This document shows positions 50,845 to 61,825 of a stretch of DNA of 64,000 bases, one piece after another. The number at the start of each line of letters is the position of its first letter. Position 1 is the first letter of the stretch. Under the pieces are notes generated by a model, which saw nothing but the letters and a program-made list of their open reading frames with translations, made no database searches and was not told the origin of the DNA. Source of the DNA: Nostoc sp. 'Lobaria pulmonaria (5183) cyanobiont' (GTDB taxonomy: Bacteria > Cyanobacteriota > Cyanobacteriia > Cyanobacteriales > Nostocaceae). The translations under genes were made by a program, and so were the position numbers. The stretch covers positions 3,890,545-3,954,544 of the forward strand of contig NZ_CP026692.1 of assembly GCF_002949795.1 (NCBI RefSeq), read 5' to 3'.

Positions 50845-51327
50845 CTAGAGTGCCGGTGCTGCCGATGAAGTTAGACCACTGAGATCGCGACCTGTGGTAC
50901 TCCGGTTATAGCCTTGGAATTCCCGATACTTTTGTGCTTCAGATTCTGGTACTCGAATTCCTTCTGCTGGTGCTGTTACCCAGTGAGCGCGGTGTTCAGC
51001 ATCACGGTAGTATACACGCCCATTCTTGGATAGATAGTACTTACCTTGCGCTCCTTCTTGTGAAGCATTCTTATGTTGGTTGTAGAGGTAATAAAGTCCC
51101 GCAGCACCTGCCAAAAGTGCCACTTTTTGTCCTGTACCCAATCCCTTCTTCGCTTCAGTTTGGCGATCGCTCACTGTTCTACCGGCGGTATCATCAACAG
51201 GTGGTGGAACTGAAGCGTTTTTAGAACCGCCTCCGCAGCTACTGAGCAAGGGCACCATTAGCAATGCGGAAAGCAGCACTGCAAATAGACGCGAAACTAT
51301 TTTACGTTCTTTATATATTGTATTCAT
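50845..51327 (-). CDS. Putative lipoprotein, unknown function
   Basis: 160 residues. The basic start (MNTIYKERKIVSR) and the hydrophobic core end in LLSSC, a lipobox, with Cys at residue 31. Mature protein: Ser/Pro linker, a Gly/Ala/Leu segment (GTGQKVALLAGAAGLYYLYN) that may dip into the membrane, then YYLSKNGRVYYRDAEHRAHW and a Ser/Ala-rich tail. Expected to be lipidated by Lgt (lgt is in the window). No family recognised. The repeat-protein gene follows it on the same strand. Confidence 0.75.
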   Translation of the reverse strand: MNTIYKERKIVSRLFAVLLSALLMVPLLSSCGGGSKNASVPPPVDDTAGRTVSDRQTEAKKGLGTGQKVALLAGAAGLYYLYNQHKNASQEGAQGKYYLSKNGRVYYRDAEHRAHWVTAPAEGIRVPESEAQKYREFQGYNRSTTGRDLSGLTSSAAPAL

Positions 51328-51665: not shown

Positions 51666-52313
51666 ATGACATCAAAAAATACTAGTACTCGTCTTCTTTT
51701 GGCTTTGTGGGATTTGGGAGGAATGCAGCAGGAAGTTAAGAAAGGTCAACTCACTAAGCGAATTGTAGCTAAAAGCCAGAAGGTGGCAGATTATCAGGGC
51801 ATATTCGAGGAATTACAGAAGCAGGGTGCGATCGCAATTTCCAAAAAGGGATACTCTCTGACATCTGGCAAGGGTTTAGAGGTATTGGGTGAAGGTTTGA
51901 GAAGTGGCGAGTTTAAGTTTGAAGGGACGATTGTCGGTACTTGGGCGGCGAATGCGTTGGTGAAGTGGATTAGTCAGATTGATGTTGCGGTAGTTGGTGC
52001 AGATGTACCAGTTAATGGGAAGGTTGCGATCGCATCTTACGACGAGTTTAAATCCGTGGCGTTGGAAGTCTACGACAAGCTGAACCAAAACTACAACCTA
52101 GATGATCTTGTGCCAATTTATCGCATAAGGAGAGAAATAGGTGATCGGGTAAGTCGTGAAAATTTCAATGAGTGGCTACTGGAAATGCAAGAAAAGGACA
52201 TTTTGCAACTCCAAGGCGGTAGCTTGTCAGACGGCGATCCAGACAAACTGGAAGACTCCATAACTACCCCAGTAAGTGGGTTACGCTGCTACGCCAAGCA
52301 TTTAAACTCATAA
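51666..52313 (+). CDS. Cassette gene A: possible winged-helix protein
   Basis: 215 residues from the ATG at 51666 (MTSKNTSTRLLLALWDLGG). Residues 1-75 read as a winged-helix: LALWDLGGMQQEVKKGQLTK, IFEELQKQGAIAISKKGYSL. The C-terminal part (DDLVPIYRIRREIGDRVSRE, NFNEWLLEMQEKDILQLQGG) looks like a second winged-helix, with a conserved-looking ending SGLRCYAKHL. This could be a DNA-binding adaptor. The family is not one I can name. It is followed by the ATPase and nuclease genes on the same strand, with 121-base and 119-base gaps. Confidence 0.68.
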   Translation: MTSKNTSTRLLLALWDLGGMQQEVKKGQLTKRIVAKSQKVADYQGIFEELQKQGAIAISKKGYSLTSGKGLEVLGEGLRSGEFKFEGTIVGTWAANALVKWISQIDVAVVGADVPVNGKVAIASYDEFKSVALEVYDKLNQNYNLDDLVPIYRIRREIGDRVSRENFNEWLLEMQEKDILQLQGGSLSDGDPDKLEDSITTPVSGLRCYAKHLNS

Positions 52314-52434
52314 ACCTATTCTTAGGTTGCTCTTCACACCCACTGAAACGCCAGTTTAGATGTCGTGCAGCTACAAATAGTGAGCAATCTAAAATCTAGT
52401 ATTCCAAATCAAAAATTCACCTCACTTTAGATCC

Positions 52435-54231
52435 ATGTCTAACGACAACGGCTTAATTGATGCTATCAAAAGTCACAACCCATTTGACAGACCTTTAGTA
52501 GTTAGAAGTCAAGATATTTGGGTAACAGGTTTTCCTGACGTTTCTTCCTTAAATGCTCATGCCTCAGATACTATTTTTGATGCCATTGAGATAGTTCGCA
52601 CCAAACAACAACCAGTTATAGGCATTACCATCAAGGCTGAAAGAGGACTAGGCAAAAGCCATCTTATCAGTCGAATTCGCCGCCGACTTCAAACTGATGG
52701 TAGTGCTTTATTTGTCTATACGAGCGAGATTAACGATTTAAATCGAATTAAAGGGGAATTTTTACGAAATGTAGCAAATAGCCTTAAACAAATAGGTAGC
52801 CAAGGGATGAGCCAGTGGCGGGAATTAGCAACTGCTATTTTCAATGAAGCTTACAACAAGACCTTCACACCTGATGAGATGGTTCGTCACTTTTCTGAAG
52901 TCTTAAAAGTAAATTCCAAAGTAGTGGAGCATTGGACGGATAGAGTCTTGGGAATTAAGCATGACATTGAAAATCCTGATATTATCGCTGCAATTTTATG
53001 GACACTCTCCTCTAATCCATCTGAGGAGCGTTACGCTATAAACTGGCTTGCGGGTCAAGAATTACCACAGTCAAAAGCTGATGCACTAGGTCTAGCAAAT
53101 TCCAGCGCCCAGGATAGAGAAGCGCAAGCCTTCAGCACAGTTCGTCAAATTCTAGACTTAATTAGTGATTACAAACCAATAGTCATTTGTTTTGACGAAT
53201 TGGAAAGTATCCTAATGTGTAATGATGCAGGATTCACAGCATCACAAGTTACTGCTATTTTAGCCAAAGACTTATACGACAAGATTAAACGGGGTGTTTT
53301 TATAACGGCGATGTTTCCTCAAACCTGGACTGATCAAATAAGAGCCTTAAAAGAAGCTGAATCAGTTACAGATCGGATTGCTCAAAAGACTATTGAGTTA
53401 ACTTATCTCAAATCGGAAGATGTTATTGTTTTAGTTTCCCAGTGGTTGAAAGACTTTTACGATCGACAAGGAGTAACATCACCTAATTCAGTTTATCCTT
53501 TTGACGAAGGGAAGCTGAAAGAACTGGGGAAGGAAAGACCAATGGTAAGAAAAGTATTACAGTGGTGTAAGGAAAACTGGTCTACTGAGTTGACGCCACC
53601 ACTACACCCAGTAGAATCTGCTTACAAGAAAGAACTTGCAGCCGTTGAAAGTAAGATACAAGATGACATAGAGGATAAAACCAAACTCGCTAACGCTCTG
53701 CGATTCAGCTTTTCCACGTTAGTTGGACAAATTTTAGAAAATGTCCAAATTACAGAAATTGTAGATATTAAAGCTCGTAGCGTAGACCAAGGATATATTA
53801 ATTTTAAAATTGTTGGTCAGGAAAATGGCAATGTTGTAAAAATTGGAGTCTCAGTTCTTCAAGGAGTCAGTGGTAGGTTCCTACAGGCTGCATTAAAACG
53901 CTTAATCGAATATAAAGAATTTGATTTAACTCGTGGTTGCTTAATTCGTTCTAAAAAGATTAGTAGTGGTACTAAAGCAAAACAGTATTTAGATATACTT
54001 TTGTCACCTCATTTAGGCGGGGAGTGGGTATTGTTAAAAGGTGAAGAGATTAAGCCTATTTTAGCAATTACTTCTGTTCTTAAAGCCCGACATGATTATG
54101 AATTATCGGAAGCACAAATAATTGATTTTACTCTACAAAATAGGATAGTAATTGATAATAATCTCATTCATGAAATTCTCAGCGATCCATCTGGACAAAT
54201 TCCTGAAGATGCTATTGATGAAGATACTTAA
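52435..54231 (+). CDS. Cassette gene B: P-loop ATPase
   Basis: 598 residues. Walker A at residues 69-76 (ERGLGKSH, after IGITIKA) and Walker B at about 249-256 (IVICFDELES) frame an AAA/STAND-like NTPase core. A sensor-like SVTDRIAQKTIELTYL follows, then KDFYDRQG and RKVLQWCKENW, which look like a C-terminal winged lid as in ORC/Cdc6-type ATPases. The last 200 residues (KLANALRFSFSTLVGQILEN, VSVLQGVSGRFLQAALKRL) are unassigned. It is a candidate motor or sensor for the neighbouring nuclease. Not recognised as any named defence ATPase. Confidence 0.8.
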   Translation: MSNDNGLIDAIKSHNPFDRPLVVRSQDIWVTGFPDVSSLNAHASDTIFDAIEIVRTKQQPVIGITIKAERGLGKSHLISRIRRRLQTDGSALFVYTSEINDLNRIKGEFLRNVANSLKQIGSQGMSQWRELATAIFNEAYNKTFTPDEMVRHFSEVLKVNSKVVEHWTDRVLGIKHDIENPDIIAAILWTLSSNPSEERYAINWLAGQELPQSKADALGLANSSAQDREAQAFSTVRQILDLISDYKPIVICFDELESILMCNDAGFTASQVTAILAKDLYDKIKRGVFITAMFPQTWTDQIRALKEAESVTDRIAQKTIELTYLKSEDVIVLVSQWLKDFYDRQGVTSPNSVYPFDEGKLKELGKERPMVRKVLQWCKENWSTELTPPLHPVESAYKKELAAVESKIQDDIEDKTKLANALRFSFSTLVGQILENVQITEIVDIKARSVDQGYINFKIVGQENGNVVKIGVSVLQGVSGRFLQAALKRLIEYKEFDLTRGCLIRSKKISSGTKAKQYLDILLSPHLGGEWVLLKGEEIKPILAITSVLKARHDYELSEAQIIDFTLQNRIVIDNNLIHEILSDPSGQIPEDAIDEDT

Positions 54232-54280
54232 AACAGGTGTATATTGTTGTAATGAATTTCCCTAAAGCTAGAAGTTTCAG

Positions 54281-54324
54281 GCTAAAGAAATGAAGTCCGT
54301 GTAGGTGGACTTGGTTTCTTTAGC
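54281..54324. repeat. Long hairpin between cassette genes B and C
   Basis: GCTAAAGAAA and AAGTCC pair with GGACTT and TTTCTTTAGC around GTGTAGGT. It resembles the dispersed repeats seen elsewhere and may be an insertion or a processing site. Confidence 0.8.
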
Positions 54325-54350
54325 GGCAATATTTGGATTTTTTAGCAATT

Positions 54351-55796
54351 ATGAATAATTTGGCTGTAATTAATACTGCTATTTGCTTGCCTGCGCCAGA
54401 TATTGAGGCATTAATTCAAGGACGAACGATTGTGGCGATGTCCAAAAATTATATCGTTCCAGAGCGTCAATTTGCGCTTTATCCAATGGATTCTTCAATT
54501 AATGTGTTGCCAGTTGAACAGTACTATCACACAAATTTCTTGGCTAATGCCAAAACTGCTCTTATCCAAGTAAGTGTTGAAACTATATCAATTAAAGCTT
54601 GGGTAAAGTGTGAAAAGTGTGAACCTTTGCATAATACTGAATCATTGTCTGCTTTATCACCGCTAACAATTTGGACTACAGAAGCCTTAAAAGAAATATT
54701 AGGGCAACGACATAATATTTTTTTGTTATACTTGCGCGTTTATCAGTTACCCAAACTAATTACACTCTCTCTCAAGGCAAACAGCCAGTTTATTTATTTA
54801 AATGAGCCTTTAACTATTTCTGAAGCAAAACCCGTATTAAACGATCGCACTTTTGCACAACGCAAGCATCAGTTAGAAAATCGACAGCCACCGCTGTATC
54901 CTGAACTAGAAAAATTGCAGAATGCGATCGCATCCCTAACCATTAGCCAACCAGCAGCGAAACAATTAGACGACGATATAAAAATATTCTTAGGTTGGAG
55001 TAGCAATCAACCAACAAACACATTAGATTTAGACTTAGCTTGGATTCAGAAAATTGCTAAAATTGGGAACTCTAGCGACGGACATACATTTGAAAAATTG
55101 GTTCGTAGAGGATTACTAAAGTTAGGCTTTACAGGTTCAGGCTTAAATCCAGATGCAACGGGTGGCGCAGGAGGCATGGATTTTTACACTGAACAACCTT
55201 ATCCAATAGTAGGAGAGTGCAAAGCAACTAAAACTGAAAAAGTTACTGATGGTACACCTGCACAGTTACTAAAAATAGGTATGAACCATCTTGGTAAATT
55301 TCAGTATGACAATTCTATTAAATTAATTATAGCCGCCGGAGAACTAAATTTTTACGCCTTGAGAACAGCTACCGAAAATCAAATGAATGTTATTAGCCCA
55401 GAAACTTTACAAAAACTAATCGCACTGCAAGCAAACTACAAAAATTCTATCAACTTGTTAGAACTAAAAGAGTGTTTGCAACAAGCTCCTTTTGGTTTAG
55501 CTGAAGATAAACTTAATACTTATATCGATAAAGTTGAACAATCTATAAGGTTGCGATCGCACATTATCCATCTCGTCAAAAATTACTTAGAAAACTCAGG
55601 TATAGAATCGGCTGGTGTAGAAGCTTTACATGGTGCGTATTTCGGCTCACATCCGCCACAGCGAATACAAACACCAGAAATGCATGAAATTTTGATTGAA
55701 CTTTCCTCACCCTTAACAGGTTATTTGGGGCGAATTAAGGGTAGTGATTGGAAGAGCGATCGCTTTTACTTTCTCCGCAATCTTACTATTAACTAA
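54351..55796 (+). CDS. Cassette gene C: Mrr-like restriction endonuclease fold
   Basis: 481 residues from the ATG at 54351. Residues 240-300 hold GHTFEKLVRRGLLKLGFTG, then GGAGGMDFYTEQPYPIVGEC followed by K. The FE248, D277 and E289-C-K291 spacing is the Mrr-type PD-(D/E)XK active site. The N-terminal 170 residues (ICLPAPDIEALIQGRTIVAM and onward) are unassigned and may bind target or partner. A C-terminal helical part ends with GRIKGSDWKSDRFYFLR. The first possible codon is a TTG at 54333, but ATG is preferred. It probably cuts DNA; specificity is unknown. Confidence 0.8.
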   Translation: MNNLAVINTAICLPAPDIEALIQGRTIVAMSKNYIVPERQFALYPMDSSINVLPVEQYYHTNFLANAKTALIQVSVETISIKAWVKCEKCEPLHNTESLSALSPLTIWTTEALKEILGQRHNIFLLYLRVYQLPKLITLSLKANSQFIYLNEPLTISEAKPVLNDRTFAQRKHQLENRQPPLYPELEKLQNAIASLTISQPAAKQLDDDIKIFLGWSSNQPTNTLDLDLAWIQKIAKIGNSSDGHTFEKLVRRGLLKLGFTGSGLNPDATGGAGGMDFYTEQPYPIVGECKATKTEKVTDGTPAQLLKIGMNHLGKFQYDNSIKLIIAAGELNFYALRTATENQMNVISPETLQKLIALQANYKNSINLLELKECLQQAPFGLAEDKLNTYIDKVEQSIRLRSHIIHLVKNYLENSGIESAGVEALHGAYFGSHPPQRIQTPEMHEILIELSSPLTGYLGRIKGSDWKSDRFYFLRNLTIN

Positions 55797-56580: not shown

Positions 56581-58167
56581 TCAGCTAGCAGAAACGGTCA
56601 AAGTACCGGGTTTGTGAAGATCGCCTTGCAAAACTACACCCCGTTGATTGGCATGGATATGACGTAAAATCTTGTAAATTGCCTCAACTTGGTCTGATGC
56701 GTCTGCCTTCTTGGCGAGTTCCTCTAGAGAAAGGGGAGTTTTTTCTTTTTGTAGCACTGCTACCACTCGTGTTTGCAAATCGAGAATGGTGGCGGCAGCT
56801 TTTTTGCCAGCTTCTACGCCTGGTTGATGGTAGGCGTTGACGTTGACCAAGCTAGCATATAAACCAACAGCACGTTCGTACAAAGCAATTAATGCCCCTA
56901 CAGTTCGGGGATTAACTTGGGGAATCGTGACTGTAATCGAATCGCGGTGATTTTCATAAAGCGCTTGTCGGGTTCCTTGGAGAAAACCGGAAAGATAATC
57001 GCCTGATGTAACTCCCGGATCTATTTCAGTGGATGGGCCCTGACGATCTTCCAACACTTCGATGAAGGTAGCAAAGAAATTCGCTACACCCTCGCGTAAC
57101 TGCTGGACGTAAGCGTGTTGATCTGTTGAGCCTTTGTTGCCATAAACGGCAATGCCTTGATGGACAACGTTGCCGTCTAAGTCTTTTTCCTTGCCCAAGG
57201 ATTCCATCACTAACTGTTGTAAATAGCGACTGAATAAAAATAAGCTGTCCTTGTAAGGTAGAACAACCATATCTTTTTCACCCTTTCCATTGCCAGCAAA
57301 ATACCAAGACAAAGCAAGCAAGGCTGCTGGGTTATTTTTCACATCTGGGACGCGGGTAGCGTCATCCATTTCTTTTGCGCCATCTAGCATGGCGCGAACA
57401 TCAATCCCCTGCAATGCTGCTGGTACTAGCCCCACAGCAGACATTTCTGAGGTGCGTCCTCCTACCCAGTCATACATCGGAAATCTGGCCAACCAACCTT
57501 CGTCTTTGGCCAGTTTATCGAGGTTGCTATCAACGCTGGTAATTGCTACCGCATATTGAGCAAACTCTAAATTGTGTCCGGCGTAGGCTTTTTTAACTTC
57601 AATCATGCCGTTGCGAGGTTCCGGTGTTCCTCCAGATTTGGAGATCACCAATACCAAAGTGCTGGCGAGGCTATTTCGCAGATAATTGATAACGCGATCG
57701 ATACCTGCCGGATCGTTGTTATCGATAAAGTGAAGTTTCAGGGGCGGGAAATCAGGAGCGAGAGCTTCGGAGACGAATTGGGGGCCGAGAGCGGAACCAC
57801 CAATGCCAATGGAGATAATATCCGTAAAGCGGTTTGCTCTGGGAGGATGAATAGCACCTGTTTGAACTTTTTCCGCAAAGGCTTCGATTTGTTCTAAGGT
57901 TTGGACTATTTCTTGTGTAAGTTCTGGAGCTGGCGCTAAATCAGGATTTCGCAGCCAGTAGTGTCCAACCATGCGGTTCTCGTCAGGATTTGCGATCGCA
58001 CCCTTCTCTAGTTGAGCCATATCCGCAAACGCCTTGTCAAACTTCGGCTGCAACGATTCCACGAAGGCATCATCGAACCGTATCCGACTTACGTCTAAGT
58101 ACAGCCCCAATCCCTCGTGTAAATATAACCAGTTTTGGTATCGTTGCCAAAGTGCCCTAGCATCCAT
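56581..58167 (-). CDS. pgi: Glucose-6-phosphate isomerase
   Basis: 528 residues. Interconverts glucose-6-phosphate and fructose-6-phosphate. [56 protein letters not shown] and [20 protein letters not shown] are as in cyanobacterial isomerases. Catalytic Glu and His regions ([11 protein letters not shown]) are present. Full length, with its own terminator. The preceding 270 bases hold TTTTAGA heptamers. Confidence 0.96.
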
Positions 58168-61073: not shown

Positions 61074-61246
61074 AGAGCGATTGGCTTTCTATTCCAAAGC
61101 TCTCCCATACAGGGAGAGAGGCTTTTATTCTTACTCTGATTCGCTGCTAGGCAACGATTTGAGAGAAAGTTGCACACGGCGTCAAATCTTCGGAAATTTG
61201 GCTCTTGTTAAAATCGAGTTGTATATCTCAGTGGAAAAAGCTTTTT

Positions 61247-61825
61247 ATGTCAATGATGACACTCAGAGATTTAGAGCAAGTTCAAACCGCTTTTACCGAA
61301 GCAGGTTTAGATTACCAGCTGGAACTCGAAAATGGGAAAATTTCAATAATGGGCCCGTCAGATATTGTATCCAGCGAAATCAGTAGTCGTCTCATCGCCT
61401 TTCTCTTTGCTTGGATAAATCCTCGTCGCTGGGGAAGAGTATTTGATTCAGCTGGCGGTTTCATCATGCCAGATACAAACCTCAAAGCACCTGATGTTTC
61501 CTTTGTTCGCGCTTCTCGACTTCTCCAAAGTCCTCGTTACTTTGGAGAACTTGTTCCTGACTTGGTGGTAGAAATTAAATCTCAGAGTGATAAAATTAAA
61601 CTTGTAGTAGCCAAAATTCTGAAATTTATAGAATTAGGAGCGCTCGTCGGCATTCTGATTGATCCTGATGAAGAGACAGTTACAATTTATCGCTCTACAG
61701 GCGAACCTACAGTTTTAGAAAATGGCGATATTTTAACAATACCAGAACTTTTTCCCGGTTGGGAATTGCCCATTACTGAATTGTGGCCTCCTATCTTTAC
61801 CGAGGAAGAAACACAAATTTTGTAA
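61247..61825 (+). CDS. Uma2 family putative endonuclease
   Basis: About 192 residues from the ATG at 61247 (MSMMTLRDLEQVQ). Uma2 (DUF820) restriction-like fold: YQLELENGKISIMGPSDIVS, KAPDVSFVRASRLLQSPRYF and LVPDLVVEIKSQSDKI, where Asp and Glu-X-Lys are the PD-(D/E)XK residues. This family is multicopy in cyanobacteria and its role is unknown. The frame extends upstream to 61205 but that part does not match. Convergent with another Uma2 gene 80 bases downstream. Confidence 0.88.
   Translation: MSMMTLRDLEQVQTAFTEAGLDYQLELENGKISIMGPSDIVSSEISSRLIAFLFAWINPRRWGRVFDSAGGFIMPDTNLKAPDVSFVRASRLLQSPRYFGELVPDLVVEIKSQSDKIKLVVAKILKFIELGALVGILIDPDEETVTIYRSTGEPTVLENGDILTIPELFPGWELPITELWPPIFTEEETQIL

Follow-up and report, generated by a model that had tools for sequence, protein, structure and literature searches.

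A three-gene cassette with an Orc/Cdc6-type ATPase and a FokI-like nuclease in Nostoc: block-wise incongruent alleles in a candidate restriction system

General features of the cassette

The window analysed here, a stretch of 64,000 nucleotides from Nostoc sp. 'Lobaria pulmonaria (5183) cyanobiont' (contig NZ_CP026692.1, positions 3,890,545 to 3,954,544), is part of contig 1 of a genome of 7.34 Mb and carries a cassette of three genes, all on the plus strand, which encode in this order a winged-helix (WH) protein (51666-52313), an ATPase (52435-54231) and a nuclease (54351-55796). Within the genus the cassette displays block-wise incongruence of its alleles: the N-terminal part of the WH protein follows the flanking genes, and none of three downstream blocks does so, these being the WH C-terminus together with the ATPase and the ASCH-like part of the nuclease, the nuclease domain, and the C-terminal winged helix-turn-helix (wHTH) of the nuclease. 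The cassette is probably a three-component, ATP-gated restriction (counter-invader) system. More tentatively, it may represent a chromosomal immune locus of a mix-and-match receptor-effector type, in which the three blocks are exchanged independently at a mostly fixed site and the block alleles are long-lived alternatives, as at loci of self/non-self or pathogen recognition. A preliminary description of this DNA had reported the cassette at the same coordinates; both were confirmed, and the motifs GLGKSH and FDELES are present.

The features of the cassette, in window coordinates, are the following (aa, amino acids; rho, correlation coefficient).
51666-52313, plus strand: WH gene, double winged-helix DNA-binding protein of 215 aa, as predicted from the model of a homologue (locus L098)
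51666-52070, plus strand: constant part of the WH protein, residues 1-135, tracking the flanking genes (Mantel rho 0.79)
52146-52310, plus strand: WH residues 161-215, start of exchange block 1 (rho with ATPase and flanks; drop in DNA identity against locus L064)
52435-54231, plus strand: ATPase of 598 aa, Orc/Cdc6-TnsC-RdrA-BrxC-type AAA+; exchange block 1
52645-52662, plus strand: Walker A motif GLGKSH, residues 71-76 (sequence; 31-sequence alignment)
53191-53208, plus strand: Walker B motif FDELES, residues 253-258 (sequence; 31-sequence alignment)
53608-54033, plus strand: C-terminal alpha-beta-beta-beta-alpha-beta region of the ATPase, with approximate boundaries (secondary-structure order in the model)
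54351-55796, plus strand: nuclease gene, 481 aa; ASCH-like domain, FokI/BspD6I-like domain and winged helix in that order (sequence and model)
54351-54845, plus strand: ASCH-like N-terminal domain, Pfam DUF1802, residues 1-165; exchange block 1
54846-55016, plus strand: conserved hinge, residues 166-222 (residues 161-200: mean identity 86%, rho 0.46 with the flanks)
55017-55538, plus strand: FokI/Nt.BspD6I-like PD-(D/E)XK domain, residues 223-396; exchange block 2
55179-55181, plus strand: catalytic Asp, D277 (kept in 108 of 111)
55215-55223, plus strand: catalytic Glu-Cys-Lys, E289 and K291 (each kept in 107 of 111)
55539-55793, plus strand: C-terminal winged helix, residues 397-481; exchange block 3

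Block-wise incongruence of the alleles

Allele exchange was analysed on 27 cassettes of one genus in which all three genes are intact, 8 of the 35 genomes having been dropped for split, cut or absent genes, by means of sliding Spearman correlations and of Mantel tests (2000 permutations), which give no dates for the events. Four flanking genes, with mean pairwise identities of 89-95% (lowest 78%), served as the reference. Mean pairwise identity among the cassettes is 82% for WH, 57% for the N part of the ATPase, 61% for the ASCH part, 59% for the nuclease domain and 86% for the hinge. The nuclease domain of the window is 92-96% identical to that of 7 of the 26 other cassettes, 62% to one, and 38-43% to the 18 others. 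Compared with locus L064, the DNA identity of the window drops from about 90% to 59-79% at WH residues 161-215, lies at 39-67% across the ATPase and at about 55-70% in residues 1-165 of the nuclease, and reaches 80-99% from residue 166 onward; in the comparison with L070, the ATPase shows 70-94% identity and the nuclease domain 48-62%.

WH residues 1-135 follow the four flanking genes closely (0 of 2000 permutations reached the rho of 0.79), windows within residues 41-100 being too conserved to inform (rho 0.16-0.36). Correlation with the flanks is nearly absent for WH residues 176-215 (0.03), the ATPase (0.05), the nuclease domain (-0.10) and the C-terminal wHTH (-0.04). Both WH residues 176-215 (rho 0.89) and the ASCH region (0.61) vary with the ATPase (0 of 2000 permutations each), with which the nuclease domain shows no association (rho -0.08; 1846 of 2000 permutations as high). 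Between the nuclease domain and the C-terminal wHTH the rho is 0.20 (18 of 2000), or 0.39 with the wHTH block set at residues 375-440. The alleles switch near WH residues 140-160, nuclease residues 160-220 and nuclease residue 396 or thereabouts, all near modelled domain borders. The blocks are not cleanly separated, since most ASCH windows still correlate weakly with the flanks (up to 0.28). For WH and ATPase the dN/dS ratio is low, and selection is mostly purifying.

The hinge of the nuclease is a likely recombination anchor. The blocks would be replaced separately by homologous recombination via the conserved WH N-terminus and this hinge, and arms-race pressure would maintain many alleles of the sensor block, the nuclease domain and the wHTH. 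A selfish homing-like locus, whose nuclease cuts chromosomes carrying another allele and which is then copied in by repair, would by itself bring about a replacement of alleles at a fixed site, such as is seen here together with conserved anchors; a nuclease domain bordered by DNA-binding-type domains fits this picture too. The WH and ATPase partners, the separate movement of the three blocks and a kinship with Orc/Cdc6 defence operons (see below), which is not a feature of homing endonucleases, make such an origin highly improbable.

Domain content and proposed mode of action

In the model of the L098 homologue, with secondary structure assigned by eye, the WH protein, a part that the fold search barely covered, consists of a first wHTH, a helical middle and a second wHTH. 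It is 77-90% identical across 11 same-genus sequences and gave nothing above cut-off in Pfam; a PADLOC hit to PDC-M64B had an E-value of only 0.025 and was rejected.

Residues G71, G73 and K74 of the ATPase are invariant in the 31 aligned sequences, as is D254, which is followed by E, Q, D or R. The C-terminal region is possibly an inactive restriction endonuclease (REase)-like domain, judging from the model; an ExK motif was not seen there in the alignment. Pfam matches of the ATPase (AAA_16, KAP, BrxC_BrxD) were all weak and below cut-off. Assignment to NCBIfam Sll1717 was rejected (28 bits, cut-off 75), and YTH matches of the ATPase profile (E 0.005-0.007) seem to be spurious. Sequence searches yielded no convincing relatives of solved structure for the cassette proteins, and the top Foldseek row for the WH-ATPase model was 8om2_W, labelled mitochondrial ribosome.

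The nuclease matches Pfam DUF1802 (E 9.5e-34), and its model displays an ASCH-like domain (residues 1-165) and a REase fold (223-396) with an intact D/E-K site, at Foldseek E-values no better than 0.01-0.1; the model suggests that DUF1802 has an ASCH-like fold. Active-site residues are conserved in 107-108 of 111 non-identical nuclease open reading frames (ORFs), so that a loss of catalytic residues in most homologues, raised beforehand as a possible objection, is not observed. The domain, originally proposed to hold an Mrr-type site, is better called FokI/BspD6I-like. Mrr family membership was rejected, Mrr_cat scoring below threshold (15.9 bits for the window and 15-19.5 bits in three relatives, curated cut-off 21). 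Neither PADLOC nor NCBIfam produced a match for the nuclease. A stand-alone DUF1802-like protein of approximately 199 aa is encoded elsewhere (G000:C1:5342389-5342877, in L097), and many of the 59 genomes searched contain a counterpart.

We propose that the double-wHTH protein joins the Orc/Cdc6-TnsC-like AAA+ protein on DNA to form a platform for scanning or loading. The ASCH-like domain would couple the nuclease to this platform, read a modified base, or do both. Once foreign DNA is recognised, the FokI-like domain would cut, probably with two copies brought together, and the C-terminal wHTH would help to position it. As first noted, no methyltransferase is seen nearby, and self-sparing would therefore rest on recognition by the sensor block (type IV-like, or of a replication or entry state) and not on host methylation. 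The earlier reading of a defence or DNA-processing system is partly supported; complex formation, ATP-gated cutting, the target and an antiviral role, and hence defence itself, are what we infer. An abortive infection (suicide) system, in which the ATPase senses a phage component in the manner of STAND/Avs proteins and sets free a nuclease that attacks the DNA of host and phage without distinction, is unlikely: the nuclease's own ASCH-like and wHTH domains suggest DNA-directed targeting.

Distribution and chromosomal site

Gene order WH-ATPase-nuclease was found in 42 of 43 fetched cyanobacterial loci of relatives (split genes allowed) and in 76 of the best 80 of 233 GTDB relatives (exceptions L128, L139, L161 and L177), or in 118 of 123 loci when the two sets, which share strains, are pooled. 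The make-up of DNA recognition, ATPase and nuclease put forward in the preliminary description is supported by this co-occurrence as well as by domain content, and homologues seldom occur apart. In the GTDB scan the best record with a name belongs to Nostoc sp. CHAB 5836, whose nuclease is 89% identical to that of the window. All 80 loci are cyanobacterial by record title; relatives outside the cyanobacteria may exist, since the scan relied on two short peptide patterns and retained only the best 80.

Locus L139 and genome G050 depart from this organization. In Nostoc flagelliforme FACHB-838 (L139:4580-5998) a single ORF matches both the WH and the ATPase profiles, perhaps through a joining deletion, and G050 contains a decayed cassette with broken nuclease fragments (C1:11729-13391, L093) and an isolated WH gene far off (465606-466220, L094).

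The cassette has a formamidopyrimidine-DNA glycosylase gene along with uncharacterised genes on its left, and pgi and branched-chain amino-acid transporter genes on its right; a Uma2-type putative endonuclease gene is located nearby at 61205-61825. Features around or between the genes are as follows.
50845-51327, minus strand: left flanking gene, conserved; outside the system, site marker (28 of 31 same-genus loci)
56581-58167, minus strand: pgi, conserved right flanking gene (Pfam PGI); outside the system, site marker (28 of 31 same-genus loci, minimum pairwise identity 91.7%)
54280-54324, plus strand: imperfect inverted repeat of 45 nt in the ATPase-nuclease gap, judged by eye; one copy in the window

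A stretch resembling this repeat also occurs in four close relatives. It was rejected as a member of a repeat family, its 20-base core pattern matching the genome once only.

The left flanking gene and pgi are both within reach in 25 of the 31 fetched same-genus loci, and at least one of them in all 31; among the six loci lacking one flank, four are cut by contig ends, and L060 and L068 have no pgi within 6.5 kb beyond the nuclease. In G027, from which the cassette is absent, the left flanking gene is followed by different sequence and lies approximately 0.67 Mb from a pgi that carries internal stops (the two flanks at C1 about 3320188 and 3988818, L228 and L226). Genomes G024, G027 and G033 have neither ATPase nor nuclease; G033 retains WH near a contig end, and WH is missing from G018 (contig end), G024 and G027. 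In an even sample of the phylum a WH match was found in 65 of 386 genomes; six of these matches were weak, with E-values of 7e-5 to 4e-10.

Several observations weigh against the restriction-system reading. Each of the three proteins has a strong match in 32 of 35 same-genus genomes, a near-universal presence unlike that of most mobile defence systems, and the site in Nostoc is mostly one fixed housekeeping site beside pgi. The 110 neighbour ORFs of 35 non-Nostoc loci likewise look mostly housekeeping among the families shown, and neither a defence island nor the genomic-island setting expected beforehand was seen. PADLOC matched among these 110 neighbours PDC-S03 models (4-6 members, Uma2-like by Pfam), PDC-S17 (3) and the other families shown once each, counts that lack a control rate and include some models that also match ordinary ABC transporters. 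Collections of plasmids, phages and viral contigs, searched with the nuclease alone, contained no homologue of it. Finally, the covariation within block 1 may be plain linkage where the DNA is too divergent for crossing over.

Near-core presence beside pgi, together with the low dN/dS of WH and ATPase, would suit a chromosomal DNA-maintenance or competence function that processes incoming or replicating DNA for the benefit of the cell. We regard this as quite doubtful in view of the divergence of the ATPase N part and the nuclease domain relative to the flanking genes, the restricted distribution of WH across the phylum, and the occurrence of broken and lost cassettes.

Second nuclease copies and a sister branch

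A second nuclease gene is present in seven of the best 80 GTDB loci (L114, L122, L125, L130, L134, L137 and L175), and in six of the seven it belongs to a different nuclease-domain cluster. Such copies could be exchange donors. Two of these six are degenerate at the active site and stand beside an intact copy (L122:7570-9015 and L175:7860-9308), and degenerate nucleases also occur in L161 and L177, loci that have neither WH nor ATPase; these are possibly dead subunits or decoys.

The two weak WH matches that were opened both belong to a sister branch, referred to as branch B. The 12 cyanobacterial loci fetched for it (L208-L219, e.g. L214:6199-11772 and L217:4832-10477) encode in order a distant WH protein of 269-329 aa, found in all 12, and an ATPase of 609-714 aa, sometimes duplicated and in L214 in place as an ORF under the profile cut. 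A third gene, encoding 746-930 aa with an exonuclease-like start by eye, is present in nine; the exceptions, L209, L210 and L211, carry two ATPases and lack such a gene. Both effectors scanned contain DEDD exonuclease, PD-(D/E)XK, FtsK-alpha and FtsK/SpoIIIE domains and match SspH (E 1e-66 and 5e-62). Among six same-genus loci, identity is 88-99% in the effector, on a par with the flanks, 78-91% in WH and 65-94% in the ATPase. Given the near constancy of all effector parts (exonuclease, PD-(D/E)XK and FtsK), branch B was rejected as another mosaic, and exchange of the nuclease was observed solely in the branch of the window. As part of the mix-and-match interpretation we suggest, with the same reserve, that branch B holds its exonuclease-FtsK effector constant and varies mainly the ATPase.

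Comparison with known systems

If the immune-locus interpretation is true, the 27 intact cassettes of one genus form a natural recombinant series that separates recognition from cutting in Orc/Cdc6-type defence, what Orc/Cdc6-type ATPases sense becomes testable by comparison of native alleles, and a putative immune locus has come to light that defence-island searches would miss.

Several named systems differ from the cassette in their components. The Orc/Cdc6 + HerA/FtsK capture systems (PMC10853773) and SspFGH/DndFGH are linked to the cassette through branch B, whose WH and ATPase are distantly homologous by profile to those of the cassette. They have a HerA/FtsK component (SspH/DndH in SspFGH/DndFGH), whereas no FtsK/HerA match was found among the three cassette proteins, nor were phosphorothioation partner genes found among the 10 flanking proteins scanned per library (43.7-64 kb). 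The PglZ and BrxX-type methyltransferase of BREX, whose ATPases are BrxC/BrxD, were not found in the cassette or its 10 scanned neighbours, and no transposase was found in the operon or the flanking proteins scanned, in contrast to Tn7/CAST-type elements with their TnsB-type transposase and TnsC. RADAR pairs RdrA with the RdrB deaminase; the partner here is an ASCH-nuclease-wHTH protein with no deaminase match. Unlike the type IIS enzymes FokI and R.BspD6I, the nuclease has no cognate methyltransferase in sight and has ATPase and WH partners.

The closest counterpart is an operon type combining Orc/Cdc6, ASCH-REase and a DndG-like wHTH protein, described in one clause and left unnamed (Rakesh, Aravind, Krishnan 2024, PMC10853773, section 22). 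The earlier claim that the cassette belongs to no named system holds insofar as PADLOC returned nothing for ATPase and nuclease, but the operon type itself had been described. As in that account, an Orc/Cdc6-clade AAA+, an REase fused to an ASCH-type domain and a multi-wHTH protein form a single operon, and the cassette has both the clade of AAA+ and the fusion. It differs in a FokI/BspD6I-like REase with an additional C-terminal wHTH and in a mostly fixed chromosomal site instead of a mobile neighbourhood. The DndG-like protein is described as a triple wHTH, and the model of the WH homologue shows two wHTH with a helical middle. In the HerA-coupled relatives treated in the same source, an inactive REase lies between the AAA+ and a C-terminal wHTH. 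The main text of that source lacks the strings cyanobact, nostoc, mosaic and exchange, and its section 22 makes no mention of block-wise allele exchange; DUF1802 turned up in one paper, whose title points to an unrelated context. No description of module exchange in such operons was found in a literature search that left most subscription papers and nearly all preprints uncovered. The operon type is thus already known, and its allele-exchange behaviour is, as far as could be found, new.

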